Shown one piece after another: positions 1 through 48,773 of a stretch of DNA of 64,000 nt. A model generated the notes under the pieces. It was not told the origin of the DNA, ran no database searches, and saw nothing but the letters and a program-made list of their open reading frames with translations. Numbering within the stretch: position 1 is the stretch's first letter; each line of letters begins with the position of its first letter. The position numbers and the translations under genes were made by a program. Source of the DNA: Histomonas meleagridis (Eukaryota > Parabasalia > Tritrichomonadida > Dientamoebidae); assembly GCA_020186115.1 (NCBI GenBank), contig WSYJ01000060.1, positions 2,294,001 through 2,358,000 of the forward strand, read 5' to 3'.

Positions 1-2450
1 AATTATGAAATACTTAACTTTTTACTTAAACAAGAAGTAATTGATATTAATGCTAGATATATTTGTTTATATATAAGATTTTTTTTAAGATTTTGATATA
101 TTAAGATAATATTTGAAATTCATTTAAATTAATTCAAAAACTACTTTTCTTTGTAGTTTCAAATGGTCATCTGGAATTAACTAAATTACTTCTTGAACAA
201 AAAGGATTTGATATAAATGAAAGAGATATTCATTTATTTTATTTATAATTCATTACAATAATTTTCAATTTTAAAATAACATTTGGAAATTATTAAAAGT
301 ATTTAATACTATATTTATCCTAGCATCTGGAAATGGTTATACAGAAATAGTCAAATTACTTCTTGAACAAGAAGGAATTAATATTTATATATACAATATT
401 ATTTTACTTTGTTTTTTATTTATTACAATAATTTGAAATTTCAAAATAATATTTAGAAATTATTTAAATTATTTAAAACAGCACTTATATGTGCAGCTGA
501 AAATGGTTCCATAGAAATAGTCAAATTACTTCTTGAACAAAAAGGATTTAATATTAATTCCAAAGATTCTTATTTGTTTTATTTAATATTTATTTTAATA
601 ATTTGGAAATTCAAAATATTATTTGGAAATTGTTTAAATTATTTTATACAGCACTTATGTATGCATCCGCAAATGGTCATACAGATATAGTTAAATTACT
701 TCTTGAAGAAAAAGGATTTGATATTAATTCTCAAGACATATATTTATTTTAAATAAAACTCATATTTTTAATTTCATGTTTCAAAATGTTATTTGGAAAT
801 TATTTAAATTATTTAAAACAGCACTTATTATAGCAGCTAAACATAATCATAGAGAAATCATTAGATTACTTCTTGAACAAAAAGGAATTGATATCAACGC
901 TAAAGATGTTTATTTATGTTATTTAATATTTATTTTTTGAATTGTATATGCCAAAATAATCTTTGGAATTTGTCTAAATTATTTAGAACAGTCTTTATGG
1001 AAGCAGCTAAATGTTGTATCATAGAAACATTTAAATTACTTCTTGAACAAAAAGGAATTGATGTAAATGCAAAAGATATTTATTTGTTATCTTCAAAGTT
1101 CAATTTTATAATTTGATATCCCAAAATAATATTTGGAAATTATTTAAATTATTTAATAATGCACTTATATTGGCATCTGCTGATGGGAACTTAGAAGTAG
1201 TTAAATTACTTCTCGAACATGAAAAATTTAATACAAAAACTGAAAATTTTTGTTTATTTTATTTAATGCTTATTTTAATATTTTGAAATTTCAAAATATT
1301 ATTTATAATTCATTTAAATTATTTAATAAAGCATTTATTTCGGCATGCGGTTTTGGGTGTATAGAAGTAGTTAAATTAATTCTTAAACAAGAAGGAATTA
1401 ATATTAATGCTAAAGATATAAATATTCTTTATTTGATATTTCAAAATATAATTTGGAAAGTGTTCAAATTATTTAAAACAGCACTAATTAAAGCATCCTC
1501 AAAAGGTTATACAGAAATAGTTAAACTACTTCTTGAACAAAAAGGAATTGATGTCAATGCTAAGGATATTTATTCATTTAATTTAATGTTTAATTTAATC
1601 ATTTTATATTCCAAAATTATATTTGGGAAATATTTAATGTATTTCGAACAGCACTAATGTTAGCATCTTGGGATAATCATGGAAAAATAGTTGAGTTATT
1701 ACTTAAACAAGAAGGAATTGATATAAACGGTAAAGATATTTATTTGTTATATTTAATATATATTTTAATATTTTAAAATATTATAATAATTTTTGGAAAT
1801 TATTTGAAATATTTTTGACAGCGCTTATGTATGCATTTTCGGGATATAATACAAATGTAATTAAATTACTTCTTAAACAAGACGGAATTGATATTAATTC
1901 CAAAAATATTAAATTATTCTATTTTATATTTATTTTAATTATTTAATATTGCAAAATAATGTTCGGAAATTATTTGAATTATTTAGAACAGCACTTATAT
2001 ATGCATGTGAAAGTGGTTATACAGAAATAGTTAAATTACTTCTTGAACAAGAAGGAATTGATATTAATAATATTGATATTTTTTTGGAGTATTTAAGATT
2101 TATTTTATTCGTTTGATATTTAAAAATATCATTTGGAAATTGTTTAAATTATTTTATACAGCACTTATGTATGCATCTAGTAAAGGTTACAAAAATATCG
2201 TGAAATCATTACTCGAACAAGAAGGAATTGATGTTAATGTAAGAAATATTTATTTGTTTTATTTAAAATTTATAGTATTAATTTAGAATTTTAAAGCAAT
2301 ACATAGAAACTAATTAATACATTTGAAACAGCTCTAATGATTGCATCCAAAAACGGTTATAAAGACATTGTAAATTTGATTCAAGAAAAGATTGAAGCAA
2401 AAAGAGGATAAACTCTGGTAGACCCGCTATACACTCTTCCATTTCATAAA
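1..2450 (+). repeat. Ankyrin unit array A (15 units, 5' end outside window)
   Basis: Fifteen ankyrin units are visible. Their conserved VKLLLEQ segment begins at 13, 183, 353, 523, 693, 863, 1033, 1203, 1373, 1523, 1693, 1863, 2033, 2203 and 2373, so 13 of 14 steps are exactly 170 bp and one is 150. Each core reads TALxxAxxxGxxEIVKLLLEQxGIDINAKD and is open. Cores are joined by an AT-rich linker of about 77 nt that shifts the reading frame. The last unit continues in the ankyrin frame to a stop at 2448-2450. Linkers d to i and k to m (nine of fourteen) are open in the frame of the following core; a, b, c, j and n each carry one or more stops. The matching first ORF must lie upstream of the window. 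Ankyrin repeats are protein-binding scaffolds; the partner is unknown. Confidence 0.85.
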
Positions 2451-6760: not shown

Positions 6761-7930
6761 TCAAAAACATTTATAATATATATTACCATTTGATAAGTAA
6801 AATCTGTTTTTTTGTAGATTACTTATTGCTCCTTTTTCCTGAAGAAACTTTACTACTTTATCACAACAAAAAAAATTTGCAAGTGAAAGTGCTGTATTAA
6901 ATAATTTGATAAATTTCCAAATCTAATTTTGGAACTGCAAATTAACGAAATGATATTTATCCGAAGCATTGATTTCAATTCCTTCTTGTTCACATAGTAA
7001 TTTAACACCTTCTAACCCTCCGTATTTTGATGCAAACATAAGTGCTGTTCTAAATAATTTGAATAATTTTCATATTTTAGCTTGAAACTTCAAATCAATT
7101 GAATAAATAAAAAACAAAACATTTATACATTTTCTTTGGCATTAATATTAATTCCATTTTGTTCAAGTAATAATTTAACTATTTCAACGTTACCATATTC
7201 AGATGCTATCATAAGTGGTGTTTTAAATAATTTAAATAATTTCCAAATGTTGATAATAAATAAAAAATTAAAAGAATAAACACAATCTGTTTCGTTAATA
7301 TTAATTCCTCCATGTTCGAGAAGTAATTTGACTATTGTTGTGTTATTAATATCAGATGCATTCATAAGTACTGTTTTAAATAATATGAAAAAATTCCAAA
7401 TAACATTTTGAGATTTTATTTGGAATTTACAATAAACATTAAACAATCTCAAATAACATTCTTAGCGTTAATATCAACTCCTTTATTCTCAAGAAGTATT
7501 TTAAATATTTCTATGGGATCATCTTATTCAGATTTACTTTCAGATCCTGCAGGAATTAATGAATACATTAGTGCTGTATTAAATATTTTAAATAATTTCC
7601 AAATATTATTTTTAAATATAAAATGATTAAAATAAATTCTATCTTTAGCATTAATATCAATTTCTTCTTGTTCAAGAAGTAATTTAACGATATCTATATA
7701 ATCATTTTTAGTTACTATAATAAGTGCTGTTTGAAATAAATTAAATATTTTTTTTTACATATTATTTTAGAATATCAAATTATTTTTTACAAATATCGTT
7801 TTTAGCATTAATATCAATTCCTTCTTGTATAAGAAGTAATTTGACTAATTCTATATTACCATTTTTAGATGCAATTTCCAAATTTTATTATGAAATATCA
7901 AATTATCAAAATAAATTTTAAATAAAAATA
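6761..7930 (-). repeat. Ankyrin unit array B (7 units, irregular spacing)
   Basis: On the minus strand, ankyrin cores are anchored at 7834, 7677, 7494, 7321, 7169, 6995 and 6842. The first ORF's half-repeat is at 7974. Steps are 140, 157, 183, 173, 152, 174 and 153 bp, unlike the strict 170 of the other arrays. The terminal unit (TALSLANFFCCDKVVKFLQEKG) runs in frame to a TGA at 6761-6763. One linker has lost the segment that normally precedes the ankyrin core, so that core starts abruptly near 7875. The drift fits the nonsense codon in the first ORF: this locus is probably decaying. Confidence 0.75.
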
Positions 7931-9166
7931 TTAATTATCTTTTGTATTGATATCAATTTTTCCTTGTTCGAGAATATATTTAACAAGTCCAATGTTCTTT
8001 GATTGAGAAGAATAAACCAAAATATCATCAGGCATTTGATTATATTGTAGAAAATGTTTAACAAGAATTAAGTTGCCTATTTCTGCTGCTTTATTAATAA
8101 TATGAGTATCAATTTGATCAACTTCTTTATTTAAAAATGATAATAGTTCGTAATTGCTATTACATACACAAATCATAAGTAAATAATTATTTAGAATTCT
8201 TCTTCTGTTAATTTCATCATCACTAGACAATGCGTGATCTTTTTGATTTCCTTCAAATTTATTTTTATAAATATATTTAAATATATCATTTTTATGGTAT
8301 TTGATTGCTGTTTCATATGCATCTTCAAATGATGAATGATTTTGTTCACATAAATGAATAATTTCTTCATTTCCACCTGCAATTGCATATTTACCTGTAT
8401 TTTCTACTTTTGCACCATTTATAAGTAAATATTTAAAACATTTAATAGATCCAAAAAATGCTGCATAATCAATTAATTTAACATTATAAAGATTAATAAA
8501 ATCACATCTTTCATAAAGTGATGGTTCAACATATTGATTAAAATCAAAATCATTTTGTGATGATATTTCTTGAAGTTTTTCGATTTCATCATTTCGAATT
8601 ACGTTTGCTAATTCATTTGGATTATGTCCTTCTGCAATTAATTGTTTATGAAGTTCCCAATCATTCTTTGAAAGTTCTTCATAATTTCTAAAAAAATATA
8701 TTATTGGATCGATTTAAAAACCTTCAAATAATCCAAAGACAGAAACATGTTTTTTATTATTTTGTTTGGTATTTGATTTATTTTCTGCTTCAGTTTTGTA
8801 ATGTGCAAAATATTTTGATAAAATATTTTTGGTTATATTTGAATCAACTAAATTTTGTTCAATCATTTTCTCTATTAAATAATATGATTCTTGTGAATTA
8901 ATTTGAACGATACAATTCGAAAAAATTTCATTTATTTTTGGATTTATTTCTTCTTCTTTTATTTGAATTGATTTTAAGTAATTTATGTATATATTACTTG
9001 AGTTTTTTTGTGAGCAAAATGCAGAATAAACTAAATTGCTAATAACAAAATTGGATGAATATGGAAAATTAAGATCAAAAAATTTCATGGTTTGATCAAT
9101 TGATATCTCCATATTTTCTTCAGTTAAATTAAATATAACATGCTCTAATATAGTAAGTAATTCCAT
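7931..9166 (-). pseudogene. DUF3447-ankyrin first ORF, one nonsense codon
   Basis: One frame runs from the ATG at 9164-9166 (MELLTILEHVIFNL) to 7931, interrupted only by TAA at 8714-8716. Downstream of that stop it continues with ELSKNDWELHKQLIAEGHNP and the DUF3447-type block (DYAAFFGSIKCFKYLL, HLCEQNHSSFEDAYETAIKY). It ends in a half ankyrin repeat, NIGLVKYILEQGKIDINTKD. The order matches loci C to G: N-terminal family domain of about 160 residues, DUF3447-like region, then array. The single stop could be a recent mutation or could separate two products. No function is known beyond ankyrin-type protein binding. Confidence 0.7.
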
Positions 9167-9656
9167 GTAAACTGATTTAAATTTTCCTTTTTCTTTTTCC
9201 GGAAATTTTTTCTTGTCTTGGCTGTTGAAATTTCAGTGATTTTTTCTCTATATAAAGTTATAATAATTTACCTAGATAGCTATCATGAACAAAACATTTT
9301 AAATTATGTCCTGATTTAACAGGGAAAGTATAATCTTGAAATATCATGCTAATCTTGAGTTAAAAAAAAGATGATATAAAAAACACATTAATCGGCCTAT
9401 ACGTACAAAAATGGGTATCACCCATCGAACTTGAGATAGAATTAAAAATAGCAATTTATACAAAAAAATTTCATAAAAACGAAATATTTATTAAAAATTT
9501 TTCCGAAATGGAAATTGATAAATTTTTCTATAGATTTATGCCCCATTTTCTATACTCACATATTCTCATAACAAATCATGAAAGTTAAGAAAATAAATCA
9601 TAAACAAAGCAAATAATAAATATATTTTTTTTATTATTTATATTTATACCAATTTC
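9167..9656. other. Intergenic, no feature seen
   Basis: About 490 bp of AT-rich DNA between the start of locus B and the terminal unit of array C. I see no open frame, RNA fold or repeat worth naming. Both flanking loci are on the minus strand, so it should hold the locus B promoter and the locus C 3' end. Confidence 0.5.
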
Positions 9657-10209
9657 TTAATGTGCGAGAAATAATTTTTCAATTTCTTTGTTCCCACATC
9701 TTTTGGCATGCATAAGTGCTGTATAAAATAATTTAAATAATTTCCAAATATTTTTTTGAGATATTAAATAATTAAAATAAAAATTATCTGTAGCATTAAT
9801 GTCAATTCCTTTTTGTTCAAGAAGTAATTTAACTATTTCTGTATAACCATTTTTAGCTGCTAAAATTAATGCTGTTTCAAATATTTAGAAAAATTTCCAA
9901 ATATTAATTTCAAATACGAAAGTATTGAGACAAATAAGAAATAAATCAAATAAATACTTTTAACATTAATATCAATTCCTTTTTGTTCAAGAAGTAATTT
10001 AACTATTTCTGTATAACCATATTTAGTTACTATAATAAGTGCTGTTTCAAATAATTTAAATAATTTCCAAATATTATTTCGAAATACAAAATTAATATAA
10101 CAAATAAAATTTTTATAATTAGCATCGATTCCATCTTGATCAAGAAGTAATTTAGTTATTTCTATATAACCGTATCTAGAAGCTGTTAAAAGTGATTCAC
10201 AAGCAAAAA
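9657..10209 (-). repeat. Ankyrin unit array C (4 units)
   Basis: Cores on the minus strand are anchored at 10145, 9992, 9823 and 9669, with steps of 153, 169 and 154 bp. The first unit follows the half-repeat of the first ORF after only 113 bp. The 153-bp linker between the first two units is open in one frame from the Asp-Ala-Asn-Tyr-Lys codons through FRNNIWKLFKLFE into the next core. The terminal unit reads TALMHAKRCGNKEIEKLFLAH and stops at TAA 9657-9659. Confidence 0.75.
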
Positions 10210-11386
10210 TTATTTATAAATATATTTAAAGTTTAGATTGATTTTTTTTAGACTTAAAACATATTTCACAAGTTCGATATTTCCTGATTGTGAAGAATAC
10301 ACCAAAATATCATTCGGAAATTTAATGGTTTTAAGGAAATAATTAGCAAGATATAAATTACCTATTCTTGCAGATTCATTTATAATAACTTTTTTAATTT
10401 TCATGCCTTTTTCTAGTAAAAATAAAAAAATTTCATAATTATGTAATTGTATACATATTATTGCTAATTCAGTTAAATCTTTAATTTCAATAATTTTATT
10501 TTCATAAATATATTTAAAGATATCATTTCGGTGAAATTTAATTGCTGTTTCATATGCATCTTCAAATGATGAATGATTTTGTTCACATAAATGAATAATT
10601 TCTTCATTTCCACTTGCAATTGCATATTGACCTGTGTTATTTAATTTTCCACCATTTATAAGTAAATATTTGAAACATTTAATAGATCCAAAAAATGCTG
10701 CATAATCAATTAATTTAACATTATAAAGATTAATAAAATCACATTTTTCATAAAGTGATTCTTCAATATATTGATTAAAATCAAAATCATTTTGTGATGA
10801 CATTTCTTGAAGTTTTTCGATTTCATCATTTCGAATTATCTTTGCTATTTCATTTGGATTATGTCCTTCTGCAATTAATTGTTTATGAAGTTCCCAATCA
10901 TTCTTTGAAAGTTCTCCATAATTATCAAGGATTTGTCTACGAAAAACAGGGAATTTTATGTTATTTATTTCTTCTTTTGTCATGTAATTGGCAAAATATG
11001 GACTCTTTTTTGTTTTAATAATTTTTGGATTAATAAGGTTGTATTCTACCATTTTTTCAAGAATATAATTAGAAACATTTGTGTATGAATTCAGAAGAAA
11101 ACTAGAAAGTACATCAAAAATATAGGATTTGGAATTATTATTTCTTTCAAATATTTCAATTTCTTTAATGAAATTCAAATACACTTCTAAATTATTCATT
11201 TTAATAGGAAACAATGTGTGTATCATCTGGCTAACAATTAAGTTAAAAGAGTATGGTTGATCCTTATCAAATTTGTTAATGATCAAATTTGTTAATGATC
11301 AAATTTGTTGAATTGAGAACATTTTCACTGTTCATATTATAAATGATATCAGTAATAGTTTTTAGGCTTTCCCATTCATTCATCAT
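10210..11386 (-). pseudogene. DUF3447-ankyrin first ORF, broken by a 16-bp duplication
   Basis: The open frame from 11286 encodes 358 residues with the family order: N-terminal domain, KNDWELHKQLIAEGHNPNEI block, DUF3447-like block (HLCEQNHSSFEDAYETAIKF), half ankyrin repeat. The true start appears to be the ATG at 11384-11386 (MMNEWESLKTITDIIYNMN), as in locus D. Between the two parts, TTTGATCATTAACAAA (minus strand, about 11275-11306) is present twice in tandem, a 16-bp duplication that shifts the frame. With one copy, the N-terminus would join in frame and match the other loci. Translation from 11286 would give an N-terminally shortened protein. Confidence 0.7.
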
Positions 11387-12561: not shown

Positions 12562-13690
12562 TTGGAAAAGTTTGAAAAGTCAAATAAAAAATATCAAAAT
12601 GAATGGGAAACAATAAAATCAATAAAAGATATTATTTTTAATTTAGATAAAGAAAATATCTTTCAATCAGTAAATACAATATTCAACAAATTTTACGAAA
12701 AACATCCATTATCATTTGACATTATTATTAGTAAAATAATATATTCATTATTCACCATACAATTAACTGGTTCTGATATGTATTTAAACTTTTTAAAAGA
12801 AGTTGATAAAATAGAACAAAATAAAAAAAGTGATTTAAGAATATTTAATATATTTACAAATTTTCTTATTGGCAAATCTACACATGAAGCATATTATCTT
12901 CTTATAAAAATGATTGATAATAATTTTCTTGAAATAAATATTGTTGGCATAATAGAATCATTGTATTTCATTCATTTATCTGGAAAAAACATCGAAGATA
13001 TAATATATATAAATTTTTTAGATGAAGACAAATATAATATTAATAAACTTAAAAAGAACAATTGGGAACTTCACAAATTAATTGAAGAAGGAAATAATCC
13101 AAATGAAATAGCAAAGATAATTCGAAATGATGAAATCGAAAAACTTCAAGAAATATCATCACAAAATGATTTTGATTTTAATCAATATATTGAAGAATCA
13201 CTTTATGAAAGATGTGATTTTATTAATCATTGGAATGTTACATTAATTGATTATGCAGCATTTTTTGGATCAGTTAAATGTTTTAAATATTTACTTATAA
13301 ATGGTGCAAAAGTAAAAAATACAGGCCAATATGCAATTGCAAGTGGAAATGAAGAAATTATTCATTTATGTGAACAAAATCATTCATCATTTGAAGATGC
13401 GTATGAAACAGCAATTGAATACCATAAAAATGATATATTTAAATCTCTTTATGAAAATAAAATTTATAAAATAGATAATTTAGAAAAATTAGGTGAGAAA
13501 TGTCTTTTACATCATAATTATGAATTATTTACATATCTAATTGGAGAAGGAATGAAAATTAGCAATTCAATTATTAATGAAGCAGCTAAAATTGGAAATA
13601 TATTTCTTGTTAAATATTTTCTTAAAGAAAATCAACTTCCTAAAGATATTTTAGTTTTCTCATCTAGAAAATATTGAACTTGTTAAATAT
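12562..13690 (+). pseudogene. DUF3447-ankyrin first ORF, no ATG and a small deletion
   Basis: An open frame of about 370 codons with the family layout: N-terminal domain (IKDIIFNLDKENIFQSVNTIF), KNNWELHKLIEEGNNP block, DUF3447-like block (DYAAFFGSVKCFKYLL, HLCEQNHSSFEDAYETAIEY). It has no ATG near its beginning: an in-frame TAA at 12553 is followed by TTG at 12562. The nearest upstream ATG (12546) is in another frame. Near 13662 the expected SSESGNIELVKYIL becomes SSRKY followed by TGA, consistent with a deletion of about 5 nt. The rest of the half-repeat (IELVKYILDQEGIDVNSKD) continues in the shifted frame. Probably not expressed as a full protein. Confidence 0.65.
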
Positions 13691-14587
13691 ATTTTAGATC
13701 AAGAAGGAATCGATGTAAATTCTAAAGATTTTTATTTGTTTAATTTAAAATTTATTTCAATTATTTTGGAATTCAAAATAATATATATGGTAATTGTATA
13801 AAATATTTAAAACAGCACTTATACAAGCAACTAAAAATGGTCATACAGAAATAGTTAAATTGCTTCTTGTACAGGAAGGAATTGATATTAATACTAAAGG
13901 GATTTATTTGTTTTATTTAAAATTTCTTTTAATAATTTTATATTTCAAAATAATATTTGAAAATTATTCAAAATAAATGAAACAGCACTTATTATTGCAT
14001 CTGATAGAGATTATACAGAAATCGTTAAATTACTTCTTGATCAAAAAGGAATTGATATTAATGCTAAAAATATTTATTTGTTTTATTTGATATATATATT
14101 AAAAATTTGATATTTTATGTTTTTATTTGAAAAGTATTTAAAATATTTAATTCAGCACTTATGCTTGCATCTTGGAAAGGTAATATAGAAATTGTTAAAT
14201 TACTTCTTGAACAAGAAGGAATTGATATTAATGCTAAAAATATTTATTTGTTTTATTTTTAAAATGCTTTAATAATTTGAAGTTTCAAAATAATATTTGG
14301 AAATTATTCCAAATATTTTATACAGCACTTATGGTTGCATCTTGGAAAGGTCATACAGAAACTGTTAAATTACTTCTTGAACAAGAAAGAATTGGTGTTA
14401 TTGTCAAAAATATTTATTCTTTTTATTTGAAATTTATTTTAATACTTTTTTATTTGAAAATATTATTTGGAAATCATTAAATTTATTTGAAACAGCATTA
14501 ATTTTAGCATCTCAACATGGTCACACAGAAATAGTTAAATTACTTTATGAACAAAAAGGAATGCATGGTATTGATATTGATGATTAA
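13691..14587 (+). repeat. Ankyrin unit array D (5 units, 170-bp period)
   Basis: Core anchors lie at 13857, 14027, 14197, 14367 and 14537, four exact 170-bp steps, with 172 bp from the first ORF's half-repeat at 13685. The last unit (TALILASQHGHTEIVKLLYEQKG) ends at TAA 14585-14587. The same frame continues after that stop as DKMKEIVSHYLRYGHD and a Thr/Ser/Lys tail to TAA 14675-14677, so the original C-terminus may have been longer. Confidence 0.8.
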
Positions 14588-30999: not shown

Positions 31000-32559
31000 T
31001 TAGATTTTACCAGAAAACATTTCAATAACATCTATTATTTCATTTTCACATGCTATTTGAAGTGCTGTTTTAAGGAAGATAAATAATTTCCAAATAATTT
31101 TGTGTAACATTAAACCATTAAAAATAATATTAAAAAGATTTAATAAACATTTTTAATATTAATATCAATTTTTTCATGTTCAAGAAGTAATTTTACTATT
31201 TCTGTATAACCATTTTGAGATGCATATATAAGTGCAGTATTAAATAATATAAATAAACTCCAAATATTATTTTGAAACATCAAATTATTAAAATAAATAT
31301 TAAATAAAACAATTTTATGTCTTGAGCATTAACATCAATACTTTCTTGTTCAAGAAGTAATTTAACAATATCAATATGATTATCTAATGTAACAACCATA
31401 AGAGGTGTATAAAATATTGAGAACAAATTCCAAATAATATTTTCCAACAAAAAATAACCAAAAGTAATATCAAATTAAACAAATAAATATCTTGAACATT
31501 AATATCAATTCCTTTTTGCATAAGAAGAAATTTAACTATCTCTGTATAACCACTTAAACATGTCAACATTAAAGCTGTATTAAATAATACAAATAATTTC
31601 CAAATATTATTTTGATTTTTCAAATCATTGATATGAACCTGATGTAAAATGGATAAACATCTTTTGTATTTACATCAATTCCTTTTTGTTCTATGAGTAA
31701 TTTAACTATTTCTAAGTAACCATTTTTAGATGCAAGTAAAAGTGCAGCCCATAATATTTTATATAATTTCCAAATAATTTTATGTAATATCAAAACACTT
31801 AAAAGAATTTCAATAAATAAATATCATCTTTAACATCAATTCCTTCTTGCTCAAGAAGCAATTTTACTGTATCTATATGGCCATTTAAACATGCCCAAAG
31901 AAATGCCTTATTAAATATTTTTAATAATTTCCAAATATTGTAATAAAGCATCAAGAAATTAAAAGAAAGTTTAAACAAAATAAACAAATATTTTTAGCAT
32001 TAATATCAATTCCTTTTTGTTCAAGAAGGAATTTTACTGTTTCTGTGTGACCATTTAAACATGCCCAAAGAAATGCTGTATTAAATATTTTTAATAATTT
32101 CCAAATATTGTAGTAAAGCATCAAGATATTAAAAGAAAGTTTAAATAAAATAAACAAATATTTTTAGCATTAATATCAATTCCTTTTTGTTCAAGAAGTA
32201 ATTTAACGATTTCTGTATTGCCACTTAAAGATGCGAAAATAAGTGGAGTATCAAATATTATAAATGATCCATAAAACTTAGTATTACACATTAAAACATA
32301 TTAATATATATTAAAAAAAGTAAATAAAAATTTTTAGCATCTATTTCAATTTGTTTATTTTCAAGAAGTAATTTAACAATATCTATATAACCAAATAGAG
32401 ATGCACGCATAAGTGCTGTATTAAATAAAATGAATAATTTCCAATTATTATTTTGAAATATAAAATAATTAAAATTAAAAAGATTTTTAACATTAACATC
32501 AATACCTTCTTGTTCAAGAAGTAATTTTGTTATTTCAGTATAACCTCTTTCAGATGCAG
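31000..32559 (-). repeat. Ankyrin unit array E (10 units, mostly 170-bp period)
   Basis: Core anchors on the minus strand are 32519, 32366, 32196, 32026, 31856, 31695, 31525, 31355, 31185 and about 31018. Seven steps, counting that from the first ORF at 32689, are exactly 170 bp; the others are 153, 161 and 167. The 153-bp linker between the first two cores is open in frame throughout (FIFQNNNWKLFILFNTALM). The terminal unit (TALQIACENEIIDVIEMFSGKI) ends at TAA 31000-31002. This is the longest array attached to an uninterrupted first ORF with an ATG. Confidence 0.82.
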
Positions 32560-33822
32560 CTATAAGTGCTGTATAAAATAAAATAAATAATTTCCAAATA
32601 TTGTATTAAAATTCCATAAAAATAAAACAAATTTTAAACAAAGCAAATAAACGCATAGAGTATTAATATTAATACTTTTTAGAGATAAAACATATTTAAC
32701 AAGTTCAATGTTTCCTGATTCTGATGAAAAAACCAAAATATCCTTTGGAATTTGATGATTTTGAAGACAATATTTTATGAGAAATATATTCCCAATTTTT
32801 GCTGCTTCATTGATAAAAGAATCATAGATTTTCATTCCTTCATCAAGTAAAAACATAAAAATTTCATAGTTATGATACATAATGCATTTTATTCCTAATA
32901 TTTCTAAATTTTTATATTTCTTTTCATAAAGATAATGAAAGATATCATTTCGATGGAACATAATTGCTGTTTCATATGCATCATCAAATGATGAATGATT
33001 TTGTTCACATAAATGAATTATTTCTAAATTTCCACCTGCAACAGCATATTTACCTGTATTTTTTACATTTGCTCCATTCATAAGTAAATACTTAAAACAT
33101 TTAATTGATCCGAAAAATGCTGCATAATCAATTAATGAAACATATTTCTGATTAATAAAATCACTTCTTTCATAAAGTGATGGTTTAATATATTTATTAA
33201 AATCGAAATCATTTTGTGATGATATTTCTTGAAGTTTATCAACTTCATCATTTTGAATTATTTTTGGTATTTCATTTGGATTAACTCCTTCTTTAATTAA
33301 CTTCTTATGTAATTTCCAATTGTCTTTTTTAAGTTCTTCAATATTTTTGATGACTTGTTTCATAAACTTAATATAAAAAAATTTTTTAATATCACTTTCT
33401 TCCATATATTGAGCAAAATGAGCATTCTTTTTATTTTGTGCAATACTTGAATCAAGAAAATTACATCCAATCATATTCTCAAGAAGATAATATGATTCTT
33501 GTGAATCTTTATTTAGAAGAAAACTTGAAAATGTTTCAAAAATTTTTGATTTAATTTTATTGTTATCTTCTAATGTTTCAATCTCTTTTATAAAATTTAA
33601 ATAAATATTTATGTCATAATCATGTATTCTCCCAACAAGGAATCCATATATCATTTGCGTAATAATTATGTTAAAAGATGTTGGGAAATTTTTATCAAAA
33701 ACATTAATGATTGTTTCTGCTGATAGACTAATGTTTTCTTTATCTAAATTGAATACAATTTGTTTTATTGATAAAAGCATTTTCATTTCATTTAGATCTT
33801 TTTTCATGTTTTCCTTTTTCAT
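32560..33822 (-). CDS. DUF3447-ankyrin protein, first ORF (intact)
   Basis: A 420-residue ORF from a clear ATG (MKKENMKKDLNEMK). Residues 1 to about 190 form the family N-terminal domain (IKQIVFNLDKENISLSAETI; YLNFIKEIETLE; QESYYLLENMI). Residues 195-340 hold KDNWKLHKKLIKEGVNPNEI and the DUF3447-like region (DYAAFFGSIKCFKYLL, HLCEQNHSSFDDAYETAIMF). Residues 340-390 are ankyrin-like, ending SGNIELVKYVLSLKSINI. The last 35 residues are encoded by the first linker and are very hydrophobic (YLLCLKFVLFLWNFNTIFG). If translation stops at 32560 the product has a tail-anchor-like end; if the linker is bypassed, ten ankyrin units follow. Confidence 0.8.
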   Translation of the reverse strand: MKKENMKKDLNEMKMLLSIKQIVFNLDKENISLSAETIINVFDKNFPTSFNIIITQMIYGFLVGRIHDYDINIYLNFIKEIETLEDNNKIKSKIFETFSSFLLNKDSQESYYLLENMIGCNFLDSSIAQNKKNAHFAQYMEESDIKKFFYIKFMKQVIKNIEELKKDNWKLHKKLIKEGVNPNEIPKIIQNDEVDKLQEISSQNDFDFNKYIKPSLYERSDFINQKYVSLIDYAAFFGSIKCFKYLLMNGANVKNTGKYAVAGGNLEIIHLCEQNHSSFDDAYETAIMFHRNDIFHYLYEKKYKNLEILGIKCIMYHNYEIFMFLLDEGMKIYDSFINEAAKIGNIFLIKYCLQNHQIPKDILVFSSESGNIELVKYVLSLKSININTLCVYLLCLKFVLFLWNFNTIFGNYLFYFIQHL

Positions 33823-34029: not shown

Positions 34030-34330
34030 TCAAATTATATTGCACAGCACTTATGTATGCATTAAAAAAGAATTACATAGAAATTTTCATTTTGCTATTT
34101 AAAAAAGAAGGAATTGATCTCAAAGCTGAAAGTATTTGTTTATTTCATTTAAAATTAACTTAAATTATTTTATATGTCAAAATGACACTTGTAATTCAAA
34201 TGAATTATTTGAAATAGCAGTTTTTATTGCATTAAACAATGGATTCATTGAAGAAGCCAAACTACTTTTCAAATACGAAATTATTGAGTTAAATGATAAA
34301 AATATAAATTTTTTTTTTATTTATATTTAA
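34030..34330 (+). pseudogene. Two-unit ankyrin array relic
   Basis: Two degenerate units of the array type stand alone, with equivalent codons (that of the Lys in VKLLL) at 34089 and 34259, exactly 170 bp apart. The first begins TALMYALKKNYIEIFILLFKKEGIDLKAE. The second (FEIAVFIALNNGFIEEAKLLFKYEIIELNDKN) runs in frame to TAA at 34328-34330. No first ORF is present upstream, and the neighbour in the opposite orientation is the intact locus E. Probably a fragment left by rearrangement. Confidence 0.65.
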
Positions 34331-39649: not shown

Positions 39650-39820
39650 ATGGGAGGAAGTCAAAATCATACAAGAAAAAATAAATATCAAGAATACCTT
39701 CAAATGTTGCGAGACCTTGAATAATTTATTTCTGATTTAAATGAAGAAAATTTCAATCAAGCTATTGAAACTTTACTAAATTACTTATCTGTAGAATATT
39801 CATATTCATTTTTGAATTTC
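39650..39820 (+). pseudogene. Truncated head of another DUF3447-ankyrin gene
   Basis: From an ATG at 39650 the plus strand reads MGGSQNHTRKNKYQEYLQML, RDLE, a TAA, then FISDLNEENFNQAIETLLNYLS and EYSYSF. This is the same beginning as other loci (for example LKFIQQAIYNLNDKNISQTVQSLINFL in locus G). It breaks off where array F starts on the opposite strand. The upstream sequence TCATTTCACTTTTTCAATC looks like a trichomonad initiator region. A head fragment has been joined tail-in to array F, and its reverse complement now supplies the C-terminal codons of that array. Confidence 0.65.
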
Positions 39821-42077
39821 TTTTTCATAATTCTTTCTTGTTCACGAAGTAATTTAACTATTTCTTTATGACCATATCTAGATGCCCACATAAGTGCTGT
39901 CCAAAATAATTTAAATAATTTCCAAATATTATATTGAAATAATAAATTATTAAAATAAATATTTAATAAAACAAATAAATATCTTTAGCATTAATATCAA
40001 TTCCTTCTTGTTCAAGAAGTAATTTAACTATTTCTGTATTACCATTTTTAGATGCATAAATAAGTGCTGTTCCAAATAATTTAAATAATTTCCAAATATT
40101 ATTTTGAAATCAAGAATTATTAAAACATTCATAAAGCAAAACAAATAAATATCTTTAGCATTAATATCAATTCCTTCTTGTTCAAGAAGTAATTTAACTA
40201 TTTCTATATGACCATCTCTAGATGCTTTAATAAGTGCTGTTCGAAATATTCTAAATAATTTCCAATTATTATTTTGAAATAATAAATTATTAAAATAAAT
40301 TTCAAATAAAACAAATAAATATCTTTAGCATTAACATCAATTCCTTTATGTTTAAGAAGTAACCTAACTATTTCTGTATAATTGTTTTTAGATGCCCAGA
40401 TAAGCAATTTTATAAATCAAATAAACAAATATCTTTAGCATTAATATCAATTGATTCTTGTTCAAGAAGTAATTTAACTATTTCTGAATGACCATTTTTA
40501 GATGCATAAATAAGTGCTGTTCCAAATAATTAAAATAATTTCCAAATATTGTTTTAAAATATTCCAAAATCACAAAAATAAATTTTAAGCAAAACAAATA
40601 AATACACTTCGCATTAATATCAATTGATTCTTGTTCAAGAAGTAATTGAACTATTTCTGTATGACCTTTTTCAGATGCAAACATAAGTGCTGTTTTAAAT
40701 ATTTAAAATAATTTCCATATATTTTTTTGAAATACGAAATTATTTAAAATAAATTTCAAATAAAATAAACAAATATCTTTATCATTAATATCAATTCCTT
40801 CTTGTTCAAGAAGTAATTTAACTATTTGTATATAGCCATTTTGAGATGCATACATAAGTGCTGTTTCAAATAATTTAAATAATTTCCAAATATTATATTG
40901 AAATATAAAATTATTAAAATAAATATTAAATAAAACAAATAAATATCTTTAGCATTAATATCAATTCCTTCTTTTTCAAGAAGTAATTTAACTATTTCTA
41001 AATTTCCATTTTTGGTTGCATAAATAAGTGATGTTCCAAATATTGTTTTAAAATATTCCAAAATTTTTAAAATAAATTTTAAATAAAACATATAAAATTC
41101 TTTAACATTGATATCAACTCCTTTTTGTGCAAGAAGTAATTTAAATACTTCTGCATGACCATTTTGAGATGCAAACATAAGCGCCGTTTGAATATATATA
41201 AATAATTTCCAAATAATCTTATGAAATTTTAAACTATATAAATTGATATTAAATTTAACAAATAAACAGATTTCTCATTAATATCAATTCCATCCTGTGC
41301 AAGAAGTACTTTAACTACTTCTGCATGACCATTTTGAGATGCAAACATCAGCGCCGTTTGAATATATATAAATAATTTCCAAATATTATTTTAAAATATC
41401 AAATCATTAAAATAAATACAAAATATAACAAACAAATATCTTTATCATTAACACTAATTCCTTCTTGTTCAAGAAACAATTTAACTATTTCTGTATGACC
41501 ATTTTCAGATGCTTTCATAAGAAGTGTTTGAATTAATTTGAATAATTTTTAAATATTATTTTGATATAGCAAATTATTAAAATAAATAATGTATAAAACA
41601 TATAAATATTTTTCATGTTAACATCGATATCTTTTAGAGCAAGGAGTAATTTAACTAATTCTAAATGACCATTTGAAGTTGCATAAAAAAATGATGTTTG
41701 AAATATTTTCAACAGATAGCAAATATATATTTAAAACATTAACATATTAAAGCATACATAAAACAATCAAAAATAACTTTTTTAGTAAGATTATTTTCTT
41801 CTTTATTAAAAAGTAATTTAAATATTTCAACATAACCATAATGTGCTGCATATAAGAGTGCTGAATCAAATATATCTAAAAAAAATTCCAAATATTCCAA
41901 AAAATTACATTATTATCACAACAAATTTTAAGAATTGTAAAGAAATATCCCTGACTTTAAAGTTAATTTCTTTTTGTTCTAGAAGAAATTTAGTAATGTT
42001 TACATAACCTCTTGAAGATGCTATCATTAAAGGTGTTCTAAATATCATAAATAAATTCCAAATGTTATTATCAAATA
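39781..42077 (-). repeat. Ankyrin unit array F (14 units)
   Basis: Core anchors on the minus strand: 41983, 41811, 41644, 41474, 41304, 41134, 40981, 40811, 40640, 40467, 40357, 40187, 40017 and 39847; the first ORF's half-repeat is at 42153. Seven of these 14 steps are exactly 170 bp; the rest are 172, 167, 153, 171, 173 and two others shortened (153-class and 110). Between 41134 and 40981 the 153-bp unit reads straight through (EYFKTIFGTSLIYATKNG). The last unit is in frame to TAA 39781-39783, but its final 20 residues come from the antisense of the head fragment at 39650. Confidence 0.82.
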
Positions 42078-43433
42078 TCATAATAAGAAAACAAGTTTTA
42101 TAACAAAAAAACAAATATCTTTAATATTAATGTCGACTCCTTCTTGTTCAAGAATATATTGAACAAGTTCAATATTTCCTGCTTCTGTAGCAAACAATAA
42201 AATATATTTTGGAACATGATATTTTTGAAGAAAATGTTTAACAAGATATAAATTTCCAGTTTTTGCTGTTACATTTATTATGTTTTCATCAAATTTAATT
42301 TTTTCTTCTAAAATAGAAAAAATTTCATAATTTCCATTGTTAATACAATAATATATTAATTCTTGTAACTTTACATCAGATAAGCTTTGTGCATTATTTA
42401 TATAATATTCAAGATTTTTATATGGAATTTGTTTTTTATTTAAATAAGTTGTTGTTTGATGAATTCCGCTTTTGTTTTCATAAATATATTTGAAGATCTC
42501 ATTCCGATGAAATTTAACTGTTGTTTCATATACATCTTCAAATGATGAATGATTCTGTTCACATAAATGAATTATCTCTAAATTTCCACTTGCAATTGCA
42601 TATTTACCTGTATTTGTTAAATTTGCATTATTAATAAGTAAATATTTAAAACATTTAACTGAACCAAAAAATGCTGCATAATCAATTAATGTAACATTTC
42701 TTTGATTAATAAATGAACATCTTTCATAAAGTGATGGTTCAATTGTTTGATTAAAATCAAAATCATTTTGTGATGATATTTCTTGAAAATTTTCTATTTC
42801 ATCATTTCGAATCATTTTCGCAATTTCATTTGGATTAGCTCCTTCTTTAACATATTTCTTATGAAGTTCCCAATCATTCTTTGAAAGTTTTAAATAATTT
42901 TTATCAAATTTTTCATCCATTAAACTTTTTGATTTAATTTTTTTGTTTTCTTTTTCTGTTTTATAATGAACAAAGAATTTAGAATTAATTCCTCGAGTGA
43001 TGTTTGAATTAACAAAGTCTTTTTCAATCATTTTTTCAATAATGTAATATGATTCTTGTGTATTAAATTCTTTTACATAATTAATAAAAATTTCAATAAT
43101 TTTTGAATTGTTTTTAATAATTTTATCTTCTTTTGCTTGGATTGTTTGTAAATAATTTAAATACATTTCAAATGACTCTCTGTGTGATACGAATGCAGAA
43201 TAAACTAAAATAACTAATATACAATTAAATGTATAAGGATAACTTTCATCAAATAAATTCATCGTTTCTGCAACAATAAAATCAAAGTTATTTTCGATTG
43301 AGTTAAATACAACATGTTCTAGAGAAATCAATTTTTGGAGATAAGCAGTTTGATTTTTTCCTTCCAATGAATTTAGATCAGTTAAAATGCAATTGTTCAA
43401 TAACTTTTTAAGTGATTTATCTGAAAATTGCAA
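42078..43433 (-). CDS. DUF3447-ankyrin protein, first ORF (no ATG seen)
   Basis: About 451 codons with the family layout: N-terminal domain (LEHVVFNSIENNFDFIVAETM; QESYYIIEKMI), KNDWELHKKYVKEGANPNEI, DUF3447-like block (DYAAFFGSVKCFKYLL, HLCEQNHSSFEDVYETTVKF), and a half ankyrin repeat (GNIELVQYILEQEGVDINIKD). It ends in a short hydrophobic tail, ICFFVIKLVFLL, encoded by the first linker. The open frame starts at TTG 43433 after an in-frame TAA. The first internal ATG is about 65 codons in. Only 78 bp separate it from the SGT gene, so the start may have been lost. An extra 25-residue insertion after the DUF3447 block distinguishes it. Confidence 0.7.
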   Translation of the reverse strand: MQFSDKSLKKLLNNCILTDLNSLEGKNQTAYLQKLISLEHVVFNSIENNFDFIVAETMNLFDESYPYTFNCILVILVYSAFVSHRESFEMYLNYLQTIQAKEDKIIKNNSKIIEIFINYVKEFNTQESYYIIEKMIEKDFVNSNITRGINSKFFVHYKTEKENKKIKSKSLMDEKFDKNYLKLSKNDWELHKKYVKEGANPNEIAKMIRNDEIENFQEISSQNDFDFNQTIEPSLYERCSFINQRNVTLIDYAAFFGSVKCFKYLLINNANLTNTGKYAIASGNLEIIHLCEQNHSSFEDVYETTVKFHRNEIFKYIYENKSGIHQTTTYLNKKQIPYKNLEYYINNAQSLSDVKLQELIYYCINNGNYEIFSILEEKIKFDENIINVTAKTGNLYLVKHFLQKYHVPKYILLFATEAGNIELVQYILEQEGVDINIKDICFFVIKLVFLL

Positions 43434-44621: not shown

Positions 44622-44952
44622 TTAAATATCTTTAGTATTGATATCAATTCCTTCTTGTTCAAGAAGTAATTTAGTTATTTCTGTATGACCATTTCGAGTA
44701 GCCAATATAAGTGCTGTTTCAAATAATTTAAATAATTTTCGATTATTATTTTAAAATATAAAATCAGGAAAATATGCTTTAAATAAAACAAACAAATATT
44801 TTTAGTATTGATATCAATCTCTTCTTGTTTAAGAAGTAATTTAACAATATCTGTATAACCAAAAGAAGATGCAGAAATAAGTGCTGTATCAAATAATATA
44901 AATAATTACCAAATGTTATTTTAAAATTATTTTATATTTCAAAAAACATCAA
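44622..44952 (-). repeat. Ankyrin unit array G (2 units)
   Basis: This is the shortest array. Cores are anchored at 44834 and 44664, and the half-repeat of the first ORF at 45004, so both steps are exactly 170 bp. The terminal unit (TALILATRNGHTEITKLLLEQ) ends INTKDI then TAA at 44622-44624, just where a linker would begin. This is the simplest case for testing how the cores are joined: one first ORF, one complete linker-core-linker, one terminal core. Confidence 0.82.
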
Positions 44953-46140
44953 CTAATGGAAACAAATATTTTTATTATTAATATTAATTTCATTTCTGTC
45001 TAAGATATATTTAACAAGTTCAATGTTTCCTGATTCGGAAGCAGTAACTAAAATATCATTTGGAATTGGATGATTTTGCAGTAAATATTTAAGTAGAAAT
45101 ATATTTCCTATTTTTGCTGATTCATTTATAATATCTTTATTTATTTTCATTCCTTCTTTTTCTAACAAAGCAAAGATATCATAGTTATGATAAAGAACAC
45201 ATTTCTTCCCTAAATTACTCAGATTTTTAATCTTACAAATTTTATTTTCATAAAGATATTTAAAGATATCATTTCGATGAAATTCAATAGCTGTTTGATA
45301 TAAATATAATTTTGATGAATTATTTTGTACACATAAATGAATGATTTCAAGGTTTCCACTTGCCACTGCATATTCAAGTGTATTTTTTATATTAGCATTA
45401 TTTAACATTAAATATTTAAAACATTTGATTGATCCAAAAAATGCTGCATAATCAATAAGTGAACAATCAAAATTCACAAATGAATTTCTTTCATAGAGTG
45501 ATGACTTAATTGTTTGATTAAAATTAAAATCATTTTGAGATGATATTTCTTGAAGTTTTTCTATTTCATCATTTCGAATTATTTTTGCTATTTCATTTGT
45601 ATTATGTCCTTCTTTAATTAATTTCTTATGAAGTTCCCAATCATTCTTAGAAAGTTCTTCATAATTGTTAATAATTTGGTACATGAATGGGTCGTTCGTT
45701 AAACTTTTAATTTCATTTTTTGACATGTAATGTACAAAATATGAACTCTTTGTATTTAACACAACTTTTGGATTAATGAAATTATTTTCAGCCATATATT
45801 CAAGAAGATAATTTGATTCTTGCTTATGTTCATTGATCAGAAAATTTGTAAAAACATCGATGATTTTGTATTTGCTTTGATAGTTTTCTTCGAATTTTTC
45901 AATCTCTTTTATGAAATTTAAATATGTTTCCATATGTTCCATTTTTGCTTGCATATGTTTAAATAAACAAAAAATGATCTGACTAATCAGAAGATTAAAA
46001 GAGTATATTTCATCATTGTCTAAAAAATTGATTAATGATTGAACTGTTTGAGAAATATTTTTATCATTTAAATTATAGATTGCTTGTTGAATAAATTTTA
46101 GTATTTTCAATGAGTCATTTTTTGGTGCGCCAGATTCCAT
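44953..46140 (-). CDS. DUF3447-ankyrin protein, first ORF (intact)
   Basis: A 395-residue ORF starting MESGAPKNDSLKILKFIQQ at a clear ATG. Order: N-terminal family domain (AIYNLNDKNISQTVQSLI; METYLNFIKEIEKFEENY; QESNYLLEYMAEN), KNDWELHKKLIKEGHNTNEI, DUF3447-like block (DYAAFFGSIKCFKYLMLNNA, HLCVQNNSSKLYLYQTAIEF), half ankyrin repeat ending GNIELVKYILDRNEININNK. The HLCEQNHSSFEDAYE motif of the other loci is changed here. TTAACG at 46147-46152 lies only 7 bp upstream of the start. With locus E it is one of two copies with an uninterrupted first ORF and an ATG. Confidence 0.8.
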   Translation of the reverse strand: MESGAPKNDSLKILKFIQQAIYNLNDKNISQTVQSLINFLDNDEIYSFNLLISQIIFCLFKHMQAKMEHMETYLNFIKEIEKFEENYQSKYKIIDVFTNFLINEHKQESNYLLEYMAENNFINPKVVLNTKSSYFVHYMSKNEIKSLTNDPFMYQIINNYEELSKNDWELHKKLIKEGHNTNEIAKIIRNDEIEKLQEISSQNDFNFNQTIKSSLYERNSFVNFDCSLIDYAAFFGSIKCFKYLMLNNANIKNTLEYAVASGNLEIIHLCVQNNSSKLYLYQTAIEFHRNDIFKYLYENKICKIKNLSNLGKKCVLYHNYDIFALLEKEGMKINKDIINESAKIGNIFLLKYLLQNHPIPNDILVTASESGNIELVKYILDRNEININNKNICFH

Positions 46141-46362: not shown

Positions 46363-48773
46363 TTACTGTGGTCTCTTTCTAGACTTAGGCCGTCCTGTTT
46401 GCACAGTTGCAGCTGAAAAACTGTGAGATTCCATGAGAAGATAACTTTCATGTAATGGCGCTGGCTCGGGAAGCTTATCATCAAGTATCATACTTGACGA
46501 TCTCTTTTTCTTCGCTGCTCTCCTTGTAACTCTCGATAATGCTTCTGGAGATGCAGATGGAAATCCTAATAAATCATCTTCTTCGTCAACACTTCCTTTC
46601 ATCGAGTACTGGTCACTTAAGTCCTCGAAAAATGAAAGTGCTCTTTTTTGTGCTTTGGAATTTGATGCATATTTTATGTCTTCTTCTATATCAGTACTAA
46701 AATCTTGTTCAGGGGGCTCTTTTTCTTCGAAGAACGATGTATCTAACTCGGATTCTAAACTTGGGACAAAAGGTGGTTCTTGTTCTTGCAGATTATCCCA
46801 ATCAATACTTGCGAACCAAGGATGATTCTTAATCTCCCTAATTGACGATGCCCCCAATCTTTCTGCAGGGTCTTTATTTAACAGCTTAGCTATTAAATCC
46901 TTTGCTTCATCTGAGTTATCGTTTAATTCAGAAACGTCATATTCGCCTTTTAGAATTTGCGTAAACGTATCCGCAACGGTTTCTCTGTGAAACGGGGGTG
47001 CCCCAGTTAACATCTCAAAAAGTATACAACCGAGCGACCAGTAATCGGCAGTAAACGTGTGCGACTGCTGGAGGATAATTTCTGGCGCAATGTAATCAGG
47101 CGTGCCCATAATCCGTTCAGGTGATTCTTCGAAGGCACATTGCCTATCAACTAACCCCCAAACACTTAAACCGAAATCGGCCAATTTCAAATGTCCAATT
47201 TCACTTACCAAAATATTGTTTGGTTTTAAATCCCTATGAATTACATTGCTCTCCCTAAGGAATTCTAAGGCTTCTACAACTTCAGCTGTATAAAACTTAG
47301 CAACATTTTCATCTTGGCAACAACCAATATTTTGTAGCAATGAATATAAGTCGCCTCCAGGACAATATTCCATAACAATGTAATAGTTATTTTTCCCGAT
47401 ATATGAAAAATCTATGTGTTAGTTATTTCTATCTAAAAGCGCTTTTTTTATTTCTTTTTTGACATTATCTAAACGATACAAAAATTCTATGCAACGATAC
47501 TATTTTCTGGTGAAAACGATCGTATATCATTGAATTTCCTATCGTCCGCATCAAGCTTTATGAAAATATCAACAAAAGAAATAAAAAAATGCGCATATTA
47601 AAACATACAGAATTGTGTCATATATGGACAAGTTACTTGCTCAAGAATATTCTTCTCGAGAAGGATTCGTTGTCTATCATTTTTTCGTTGGATACTACTC
47701 TTAGATATAACTTTCACTGCGATTAAGTCATTAGTTGCACTTCGTTTTGCCAAGAAAACTTGTGCATATGCGCCGCTTGAAATTCGCTTAAGAAATTGGA
47801 AGTCAGCTATTGTAGTTTCGCGAATGCATAGTTTTTCTGATGTTGTTTTCTCTACAAAGTCCATTGCTTCGGATAGTTTGTTTGATGCTTTAATTTTCTC
47901 ATCGAGTAAAACTAAGGCTTCGCTATATATAATGCTAAGCTCTGGACTTGACACAGGGACATTGACAAGGTTAAAGGAGTCTTTGATAGACTCTAATTCT
48001 TCAAAGGAGCCACTTGAATTGTTATCAATTTTGATCGCATTATCAAGAAGAGCTATAATATGAAGAATAGGAATGACCGTATCAATAACATTTTGCTCGT
48101 TACCAGGCCAATGGATTTTGAGAAGATGTTCTTGGGTTCGAATTTGTAACTTTTTCATTTTCTCATCAGTGGTCATCATGGTCTGACTTGATAAATATGC
48201 AACTTCACACATCTTAGAATGTTCTTCAATCATGCTAAGTGGTATTTTTTTCTCACATATTCGACATATGACAGTATCAGAATCTGACGATTGGGAATTG
48301 GCTGTTGGAACACTTGGATCTGAAAAAGAAGGAGGTGAGATAGGTGAGCCTGAAGCTGAAAAATTGAATTGATGATCATCATCTGAAAATGAACCTGAAA
48401 AATTCGAGCGAGAGAGCAAAGGAATAAGTCGATTTATAGATAAGCAAGCAGAGAGGATTTGGTATCCAACTTTTTCGATGCTTGGCGTTAGTTTTTCTGT
48501 AAGAAGAGTATTGACTGATGCTGCAAAATTATATGATAACTGAAATAAAAGACCATAAGAAGAGTCTAATATTTGAGAAAGTGAAGATTTAAACATTTCT
48601 ATTGCCTTTTTGTCATCGGTTGTTTCTGGAGTAAGTCGATTTACAACTTGATTTAATGTTTCAAAAGTTGTTCTCTGGGATTTCAGACAATAATAAATCC
48701 TATGGTATACTTGTTGTGTTGATGACTGTGATTTCGAACCGCCAACACTGTCCGGTGGCTGGGGTTCAATCAT
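46363..48773 (-). CDS. Rim15/IRE/MAST-type AGC protein kinase, one intron
   Basis: Two exons: 48773-47609 and 47411-46363, together about 737 codons. Exon 1 starts MIEPQPPDSVGGSK and has a C2HC zinc motif (CRICEKKIPLSMIEEHSKMC), as in yeast Rim15 and plant IRE kinases. The glycine loop GAYAQVF and catalytic Lys in AVKVISK follow. Splicing joins MTQF to YFSYIGKNNYYIVMEYCPGG, restoring a normal AGC hinge. Exon 2 has HRDLKPNN, ADFGLS and GTPDYIAPEII, then LGASSIREIKNHPWF and an AGC-type tail. The activation segment is short. Such kinases act in nutrient or cell-cycle signalling. The open frame before the ATG begins with TTG, so I use 48773. Confidence 0.88.
47412..47608 (-). other. Spliceosomal intron in the kinase gene
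   Basis: A 197-nt intron. On the minus strand the 5' end is GTATGT and the 3' end is ACTAACACATAG, in which ACTAAC is the fused branch-point motif described for Trichomonas vaginalis introns. Removing it restores an uninterrupted kinase domain (TTC T / AT TTT). It contains in-frame stops, so it must be removed. Confidence 0.93.

Follow-up and report, generated by a model that had tools for sequence, protein, structure and literature searches.

Frame-breaking linkers between ankyrin repeats of DUF3447 genes as candidate introns in Histomonas meleagridis

Results

Ankyrin arrays in the window

The window, that is, the whole 64,000-nucleotide stretch of contig WSYJ01000060.1 of the poultry parasite H. 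meleagridis that was analysed, carries arrays of ankyrin cores at seven loci on both strands (Table 1), the same number as in the first-pass annotation. As that annotation also held, the cores are open and ankyrin-like, and neighboring cores are mutually out of frame. All 10 single cores that were tested alone pass the Pfam Ank model (PF00023), with 28.0–36.5 bits against a cut-off of 21.1. Exact 170-bp steps make up 34 of the 54 steps in the seven arrays, with the last cores of A and E and the first core of G placed one period out by hand, where the sequence proved ankyrin-like. An HMM scan with no forced placement gave 36 window steps of 170 bp, and Tandem Repeats Finder likewise detects the 170-bp period in arrays A, C, D, E, F and G. 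The spacing described earlier is recovered in D (4 of 5 steps, namely the four after the first), G (2 of 2), E (mostly, 7 of 9) and F (about half, 8 of 14), and had been overstated for A, in which 12 rather than 13 of the 14 steps are 170 bp and the others are 167 and 150 bp. Arrays B (0 of 7) and C (1 of 3) lie mostly outside the 170-bp lock because of their other steps; the non-170 steps in the window are 110, 139, 150, 153, 157, 161, 167, 171–173 and 183 bp.

The N-terminal ORFs of C, D, E and G pass the DUF3447 (PF11929) cut-off of 26.9 and that of F, scoring 25.0, falls below it; these results cover C, D, E, F and G, the upstream part of A lying beyond the window. The ORF of D is out of frame with the first core of its array and is therefore probably broken there. 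A lone diverged ankyrin core relic is found at 34041–34133 (+), on the strand opposite to E and F and upstream of a nucleoside transporter ORF.

Table 1. Ankyrin arrays, their N-terminal ORFs and reference features in the window
Feature	Position	Strand	Description
Array A	1..2411	+	15 ankyrin cores, the first cut by the window edge; last ends ...NLIQEKIEAKRG-stop
Example core (array A)	475..567	+	31 codons; alone matches PF00023 with E = 8.8e-8
Example linker (array A)	568..644	+	77 nt, between the D codon of one core and the x-T-A-L codons of the next
Array B	6761..9166	-	Irregular steps, 2 interior stops; decayed member
Array B, upstream open piece	8714..9166	-	150 aa; upstream region broken
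Array C	9657..11286	-	4 array cores, steps 153, 170, 153; stop in last core
Array C, N-terminal ORF	10210..11286	-	DUF3447/ankyrin
Array D	12562..14587	+	6 cores; stop in last core
Array D, DUF3447 ORF	12562..13677	+	Out of frame with first core
Array E	31000..33822	-	Array cores; last ends ...VIEMFSGKI-stop
Array E, N-terminal ORF	32560..33822	-	DUF3447/ankyrin
Array F	39781..43433	-	15 cores; stop in last core
Array F, N-terminal ankyrin ORF	42078..43433	-	DUF3447 match below cut-off
Array G	44622..46140	-	3 cores
Array G, N-terminal ORF	44953..46140	-	DUF3447/ankyrin
Trichomonad-type canonical intron in kinase gene	47412..47608	-	GTATGTTTT...ACTAACACATAG; boundaries by eye; kinase AGC/MAST-like by eye

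Abundance in the genome and gene-like anatomy of the arrays

We searched the 43.3-Mb genome with a 20-base linker motif and found 4,756 matches with at most 2 mismatches, compared with 26 for the reversed control. Twenty further stretches (L011–L030) were picked by this motif and four (L034–L037) by having a linker-less junction, so that only the window is unbiased. In the window and the 20 motif-chosen stretches, a detected core follows immediately after 134 of 139 motif matches, which ties the linker to ankyrin cores; four of the remaining matches precede core-like sequence and one lies within a longer linker. With respect to introners, i.e., the same element in unrelated genes, 138 of the 139 matches thus stand before cores or core-like sequence in this motif-chosen sample and the window. 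There are 235 linkers per 139 motif matches over all loci and 55 per 25 in the window, and multiplying the genomic motif count by this ratio would extrapolate to roughly 8,000–10,000 linkers. The viral contigs hold 2 motif matches without cores, which we took as chance.

Across the same sample, 153 of 207 steps are 170 bp, and the other 54 comprise 19 of length 3n+2, 22 of 3n and 13 of 3n+1. A single reading frame across consecutive repeats is not found in the genomic DNA, the step being 3n+2 in 172 of 207 cases; consecutive PF00023 repeats come into one frame only if the linkers are removed. Membership of the same array adds little to the similarity of two units (linker identity 0.784 within vs 0.767 between arrays; core identity 0.750 vs 0.729), and the arrays therefore did not arise by recent local amplification.

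Many arrays have the look of complete genes that begin with an N-terminal ORF and finish on a closing core. Of the 35 arrays with 3 or more cores, 21 have at least 180 open codons upstream that share the frame of the first core detected, and 13 of these have at least 339; the other 14 arrays lack a long in-frame upstream ORF, some being cut by the end of the stretch or broken. The first core behind the long N-terminal ORF is DILVxASESGNIELVKYILEQ-like in about 17 of the 21 by eye, and none is of the T-A-L type. At the other end, which is visible in 33 arrays, 22 show nothing linker-like within 140 nt downstream of the last core (identity cut-off 0.65, our own choice; L018 and L024, counted among the 22, begin linker-like by eye), and the remaining 11 have linker-like sequence at an identity of at least 0.68. 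In 14 of the 22, the last core is shortened by its stop, and a shortened last repeat is the look of a C-terminal cap. In the genome search for DUF3447, 150 of 1,695 first-look candidates were scored; among the matches listed all are above the cut-off, with two or so bearing internal stops, and 0 of 14 control genomes were positive.

Coding selection on the cores

The cores are under coding selection. No stop occurs in the core frame of the 153 cores of 170-bp units, where 69.5 would be expected from column shuffles among units (sd 5.5; lowest 42 in 500 shuffles) and 88 from the mutation spectrum of the linkers themselves; when decayed arrays are admitted to a looser set, 10 of its 204 interior cores have a stop, spread over 8 of the 35 arrays. 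Lengths divisible by three account for 16 of 27 core indels and 17 of 55 linker indels (P = 0.013, Fisher's exact test; counts here treat related units as separate cells), and a single locus, L018, contributes 5 of the 11 core indels of other lengths. The ratio of non-synonymous to synonymous changes is 0.56 of neutral at structural codons and 3.98 of neutral at surface codons, the latter being ten variable codons picked from the data and presumably corresponding to the surface positions of ankyrin repeats. Fold codons such as N, I, L and K change below neutral, down to 0.17, and the codons preceding T-A-L, A-S and N-G are non-synonymous in 123, 139 and 114 units vs 45, 42 and 51 expected. The structural codons are thus constrained and the surface codons diversified, and the whole-core ratio of 1.10 of neutral hides both. 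The rule proposed earlier, by which a dN/dS near 1 in cores would refute the first-pass interpretation, is therefore misleading, since the overall value of about 1.1 is a mixture of 0.56 and 3.98.

The earlier null hypothesis of recent amplification with neutral decay is rejected by the absent stops, the bias of core indels toward multiples of three and the codon constraint. A related possibility is that the arrays are dying parts of genes, once coding, which lost frame or splice signals and now decay. This describes the plainly broken arrays B, L018, L020, L023, L024 and L028 and the interior stops in 8 of 35 arrays, but at the divergence of the linkers some 70–88 stops should have accumulated in the 153 cores that have none, and the core indels have a 3n bias; as an account of the family it appears unlikely.

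Linkers carry upstream-frame stops and lose their length slowly

Read from the upstream core, the linkers show no selection against stops: 162 stops are found in the 153 linkers of 170-bp units vs 161.6 expected by shuffling, and 109 of these linkers hold at least one. In the downstream frame there are 78 stops vs 112 in shuffles, with 51 of the 153 linkers having one, and the third frame has similar local deficits at single columns; the downstream-frame deficit of the 170-type linkers is not fully explained. The 170-type length is kept by 29 of 35 linkers at 95% or higher identity to the consensus, 105 of 144 at 80–95% and 41 of 65 below 80%, which suggests that the length is lost slowly. In 54 divergent linkers, conservation is best at the T-rich 5' start, at the G of column 150 and at the closing TTT, and these positions may constitute the signal.

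RNA structure was considered as a linker signal and rejected. RNAalifold returned an empty consensus structure for the linkers, the folding z-scores average -0.10 with 3 of 51 linkers below -2, and no complementarity was found by eye in the top covarying columns; a single consensus linker string folds at -9.1 kcal/mol. The ends of a linker pair at -3.16 kcal/mol, compared with -3.22 for swapped partners and -3.62 for shuffled sequences, i.e., no better than shuffles. The linkers at L034–L037 are much diverged, with steps that include 154, 167 and 170 bp and, by eye, a TTTGGAA-like block 20 nt before the core.

Splice signals in linkers and in an ordinary intron

An ordinary intron is available for comparison in the kinase gene of the window (Table 1), where GTATGT..ACTAACACATAG splits the gene into two entries of the ORF list. 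The 3' motif ACTAACACAYAG, with at most 1 mismatch, has one match in the window, in this gene, and neither GTATGT-like 5' motifs nor ACTAACACAYAG-like 3' motifs occur in the window linkers. At their commonest places, GT is present in 104 of 153 linkers and AG in 127 of 153, and together they are in the wrong phase; within the span scanned, a phase-correct GT..AG exists in 28 of 153 linkers. Canonical splicing from the GT at linker base 9 to the AG in ACAG was accordingly rejected for its wrong phase, and this AG is also lost in 26 of 153 units, often with the protein sense kept (TPL, TSL). Ends of the types GT..AC and AT..AC, read by hand, are in the wrong phase or delete the hypervariable codon before T-A-L. 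In the genome, ACTAACACACAG has 3 matches (2 in the reversed control) and CTAACACATAG has 76 (21 in the reversed control); CTAACACATAG clusters at about 825-bp intervals on contigs C9, C53, C55 and C84, which suggests a tandem repeat family with a splice-like motif.

Linker-less junctions

Ankyrin repeats are read straight through at four linker-less junctions in the genome (C63, C92, C114 and C120) and in P0009, a protein from an ENA contig of another species, a 79-residue piece of which matches C63 ungapped at 68%. The joins at C63 (KNVLFESPLMKAC) and C92 (KDESNLTPLMHAC) have three residues between the D/N and the variable residue, and those at C114 and C120 are longer. The junctions illustrate the form that a joined product would take, and ankyrin geometry and the two former ones favor an excision of 68 nt. 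Of the 252 core pairs, 216 (step 139–195, both cores above 25 bits) entered the junction tests. A 68-nt excision, with nine linker bases kept, leaves 9–13 stops in the 216 junctions at cuts (3,6), (4,5), (6,3), (7,2) and (8,1), 13 at cut (2,7) and more at the remaining cuts; a 71-nt excision with six bases kept as 3+3 or 4+2 leaves 1 stop, which argues for it only weakly because the kept codons cannot easily become stops. In the example linker of Table 1, the putative excised part would thus be about 68–71 of the 77 nt. A protein search for joined arrays, limited to 3 candidates and thus weakly negative, gave 2 matches, P0009 itself and one other ankyrin protein.

Linkers in proteins of related species

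In the linkers of 153-bp units, the frame is kept, and 3 of 10 hold stops, a proportion close to the 51 of 153 for 170-bp units read in that frame, so there is no sign of selection for read-through in this sample. Against this, P0013, from another species, reads through a 153-type linker to the last core and its stop. Its listed full-length matches in the H. meleagridis genome are 44–57% identical, and among the 50 listed that extend to residue 449 or beyond, 18 are stop-free through the in-frame linker and 32 have one or more stops along the match. Some members of the family may therefore translate a shorter in-frame linker, which 170-bp units cannot do. If the linkers were translated throughout, with 153-bp units read straight through, every 170-bp unit would need a -1 frameshift or bypass at its linker. 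Such a shift would connect all 170-bp units, a TTTAAAT heptamer, which we take to be of the slippery type, lies right-framed near the linker end, and the downstream-frame stops fall below shuffled numbers. However, 29 of 153 linkers of 170-bp units have no frame overlap for a shift, in 73 of 153 a single codon upstream of the heptamer is already a stop, no core among the 153 has a stop, 3 of the 10 in-frame linkers of 153-bp units themselves hold stops, and step lengths of all three classes (3n, 3n+1 and 3n+2) occur. Rejoining at the level of translation, one of the routes suggested earlier, is disfavored for the 170-bp units, and we consider this alternative very unlikely.

P0002, encoded on an ENA contig presumably from a species whose adaptin is 77% identical, enters the linker in the same shifted frame by eye; with named Histomonas proteins the adaptin gave 50% identity, and these hits were taken for paralogues. 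Moreover, P0003, P0004, P0008, P0012 and P0015 end right after ...DI or ...NI codons, as does P0014, Histomonas' own annotated protein. The linker and its phase are thus not peculiar to this assembly. An assembly artefact, in which a true unit of 171 bp has lost one base in nanopore homopolymers, might be expected from the use of nanopore reads and from the T and A runs in which the linkers are rich. Nevertheless, the upstream-frame stops would generally not be cured by one base, P0002 ends in the same frame-shifted reading in another species, and PMC8529796 gives a base accuracy of 99.82% against an Illumina assembly, which together make this explanation barely credible.

If the ENA contigs of P0001–P0017 are cDNA, the large number of ORFs that stop within the first linker would argue against splicing. 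In a model of silent cassettes, translation would terminate in the first linker, and the cores beyond it would be a gene-conversion or recombination store that diversifies expressed ankyrin genes. In its favor, most N-terminal ORFs are intact and most of those in relatives run only as far as the first linker, the surface codons of the cores are diversified, and the motif is present thousands of times. On the other hand, the core read by the N-terminal ORF is, by eye, of another type and is not replaced by the array type, the array ends kept in 22 of 33 cases would be needless in a silent store, and a store would tolerate stops, of which the 153 cores of 170-bp units have none and the looser set only 10 in 204. 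The earlier suggestion of recombination donors leaves the kept gene ends unexplained, and we regard it as rather unlikely.

Discussion

Removal from RNA as the favored reading

Removal from RNA is the simplest process that would fit selected modules, frame-breaking and stop-bearing linkers and gene-like arrays. What the sequence shows is the anatomy of the arrays, coding selection on the cores, no selection against linker stops in the frame of the upstream core and no canonical signals; from these we infer transcription, loss of the linkers from RNA, the precise points of joining and the role of the protein. We give slightly better than an even chance to the reading in which the repeats are exons and the linkers between them leave the RNA without recourse to the usual signals. 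Points against it are the scarcity of usable splice signals and of end pairing, the stops left by a 68-nt excision, the possible translation of in-frame linkers, the downstream-frame stop deficit, the arrays with no long upstream ORF or with interior stops, and the weakly negative search for joined arrays. The first-pass annotation had raised rejoining of cores at the RNA level, and this stands as the best reading, now in the form of one-exon-per-repeat introns, which it did not name.

In such a gene, each array would be the 3' part, a large first exon would encode the DUF3447/ankyrin domain, each ankyrin repeat would be one exon of about 99–102 nt, and the last exon would encode the closing repeat and the stop. 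The linkers of 170-bp units would be introns of about 68–71 nt, all in one phase, and the 170-bp period then need not be a multiple of three because the linkers would be introns. The removal route would bypass the ordinary GTATGT..ACTAACACAYAG signals, by a tolerant spliceosome or some other activity, and the minority of shorter in-frame linkers in 153-bp units may be kept and translated. Such genes would encode a long solenoid of ankyrin repeats with diversified surface residues, and the repeats could be duplicated or swapped without breaking the frame because the intron phase would be uniform. Somewhat short of an even chance, in our judgment, is the fuller proposal that H. meleagridis carries some 8,000–10,000 short introns without GT-AG, branch motif or pairing between the repeats of hundreds of DUF3447-ankyrin genes, which would yield a large, diversified and largely unannotated protein set; the gene number extrapolates from the 150 scored of 1,695 DUF3447 candidates.

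Comparison with known systems

In vertebrate ankyrin genes, an exon likewise corresponds to a repeat with symmetrical phase, but the splice sites are ordinary and the genes are few. The Tritrichomonas foetus DUF3447 protein P0022 shares the N-terminal domain family and the presence of an ankyrin repeat after it, but in P0022 no AT-rich linker precedes the T-P-L repeat, which continues the frame (KDEKGKTPLQIAC, by eye). Among parabasalids, PMC12316389 describes 63 active introns in T. vaginalis and two spliceosomal types in Trichomonas, A and B, which are short like the linkers, type A (56–196 nt) spanning the linker length, and which likewise have ankyrin genes among their hosts. These introns differ from the linkers in having extended 5' and 3' motifs and a fused branch site, and the linkers occur many per gene. 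The noncanonical introns of diplonemids and euglenids (PMC12621601) similarly lack GT-AG ends and coexist with canonical introns in the host; their ends, however, are joined by base-pairing, which is not better than in shuffles for the linker ends.

H. meleagridis itself is described in PMC8529796 as intron-poor, with 573 introns and never more than one in a gene, and the main text of that paper does not use the word "ankyrin". A proteomic study (PMC10063853) lists one KANK1-like ankyrin unigene, which could not be matched to the DUF3447-ankyrin arrays. We found no published work on these linkers in the open-access literature searched. If the linkers are introns, the numbers of introns, the gene models and the set of ankyrin proteins now assumed for this parasite and its relatives would be wrong by a large factor, and parabasalids would own a second route of intron removal. 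The arrays would then offer a clean system for intron recognition without the usual signals and for the diversification of repeat proteins via reused frame-neutral modules. If the linkers are not removed, thousands of selected coding modules lie where no known process reads them, which would be stranger still.

Other features of the window

Apart from the arrays, the window contains an 18-bp tandem repeat of 7.7 copies at 52783–52921 (AATGTATTTGATTTAGAA) and, at 56656–58563 (-), a BspA-type leucine-rich repeat protein (LRR_5, PF13306), with a TMEM154 match below the cut-off.
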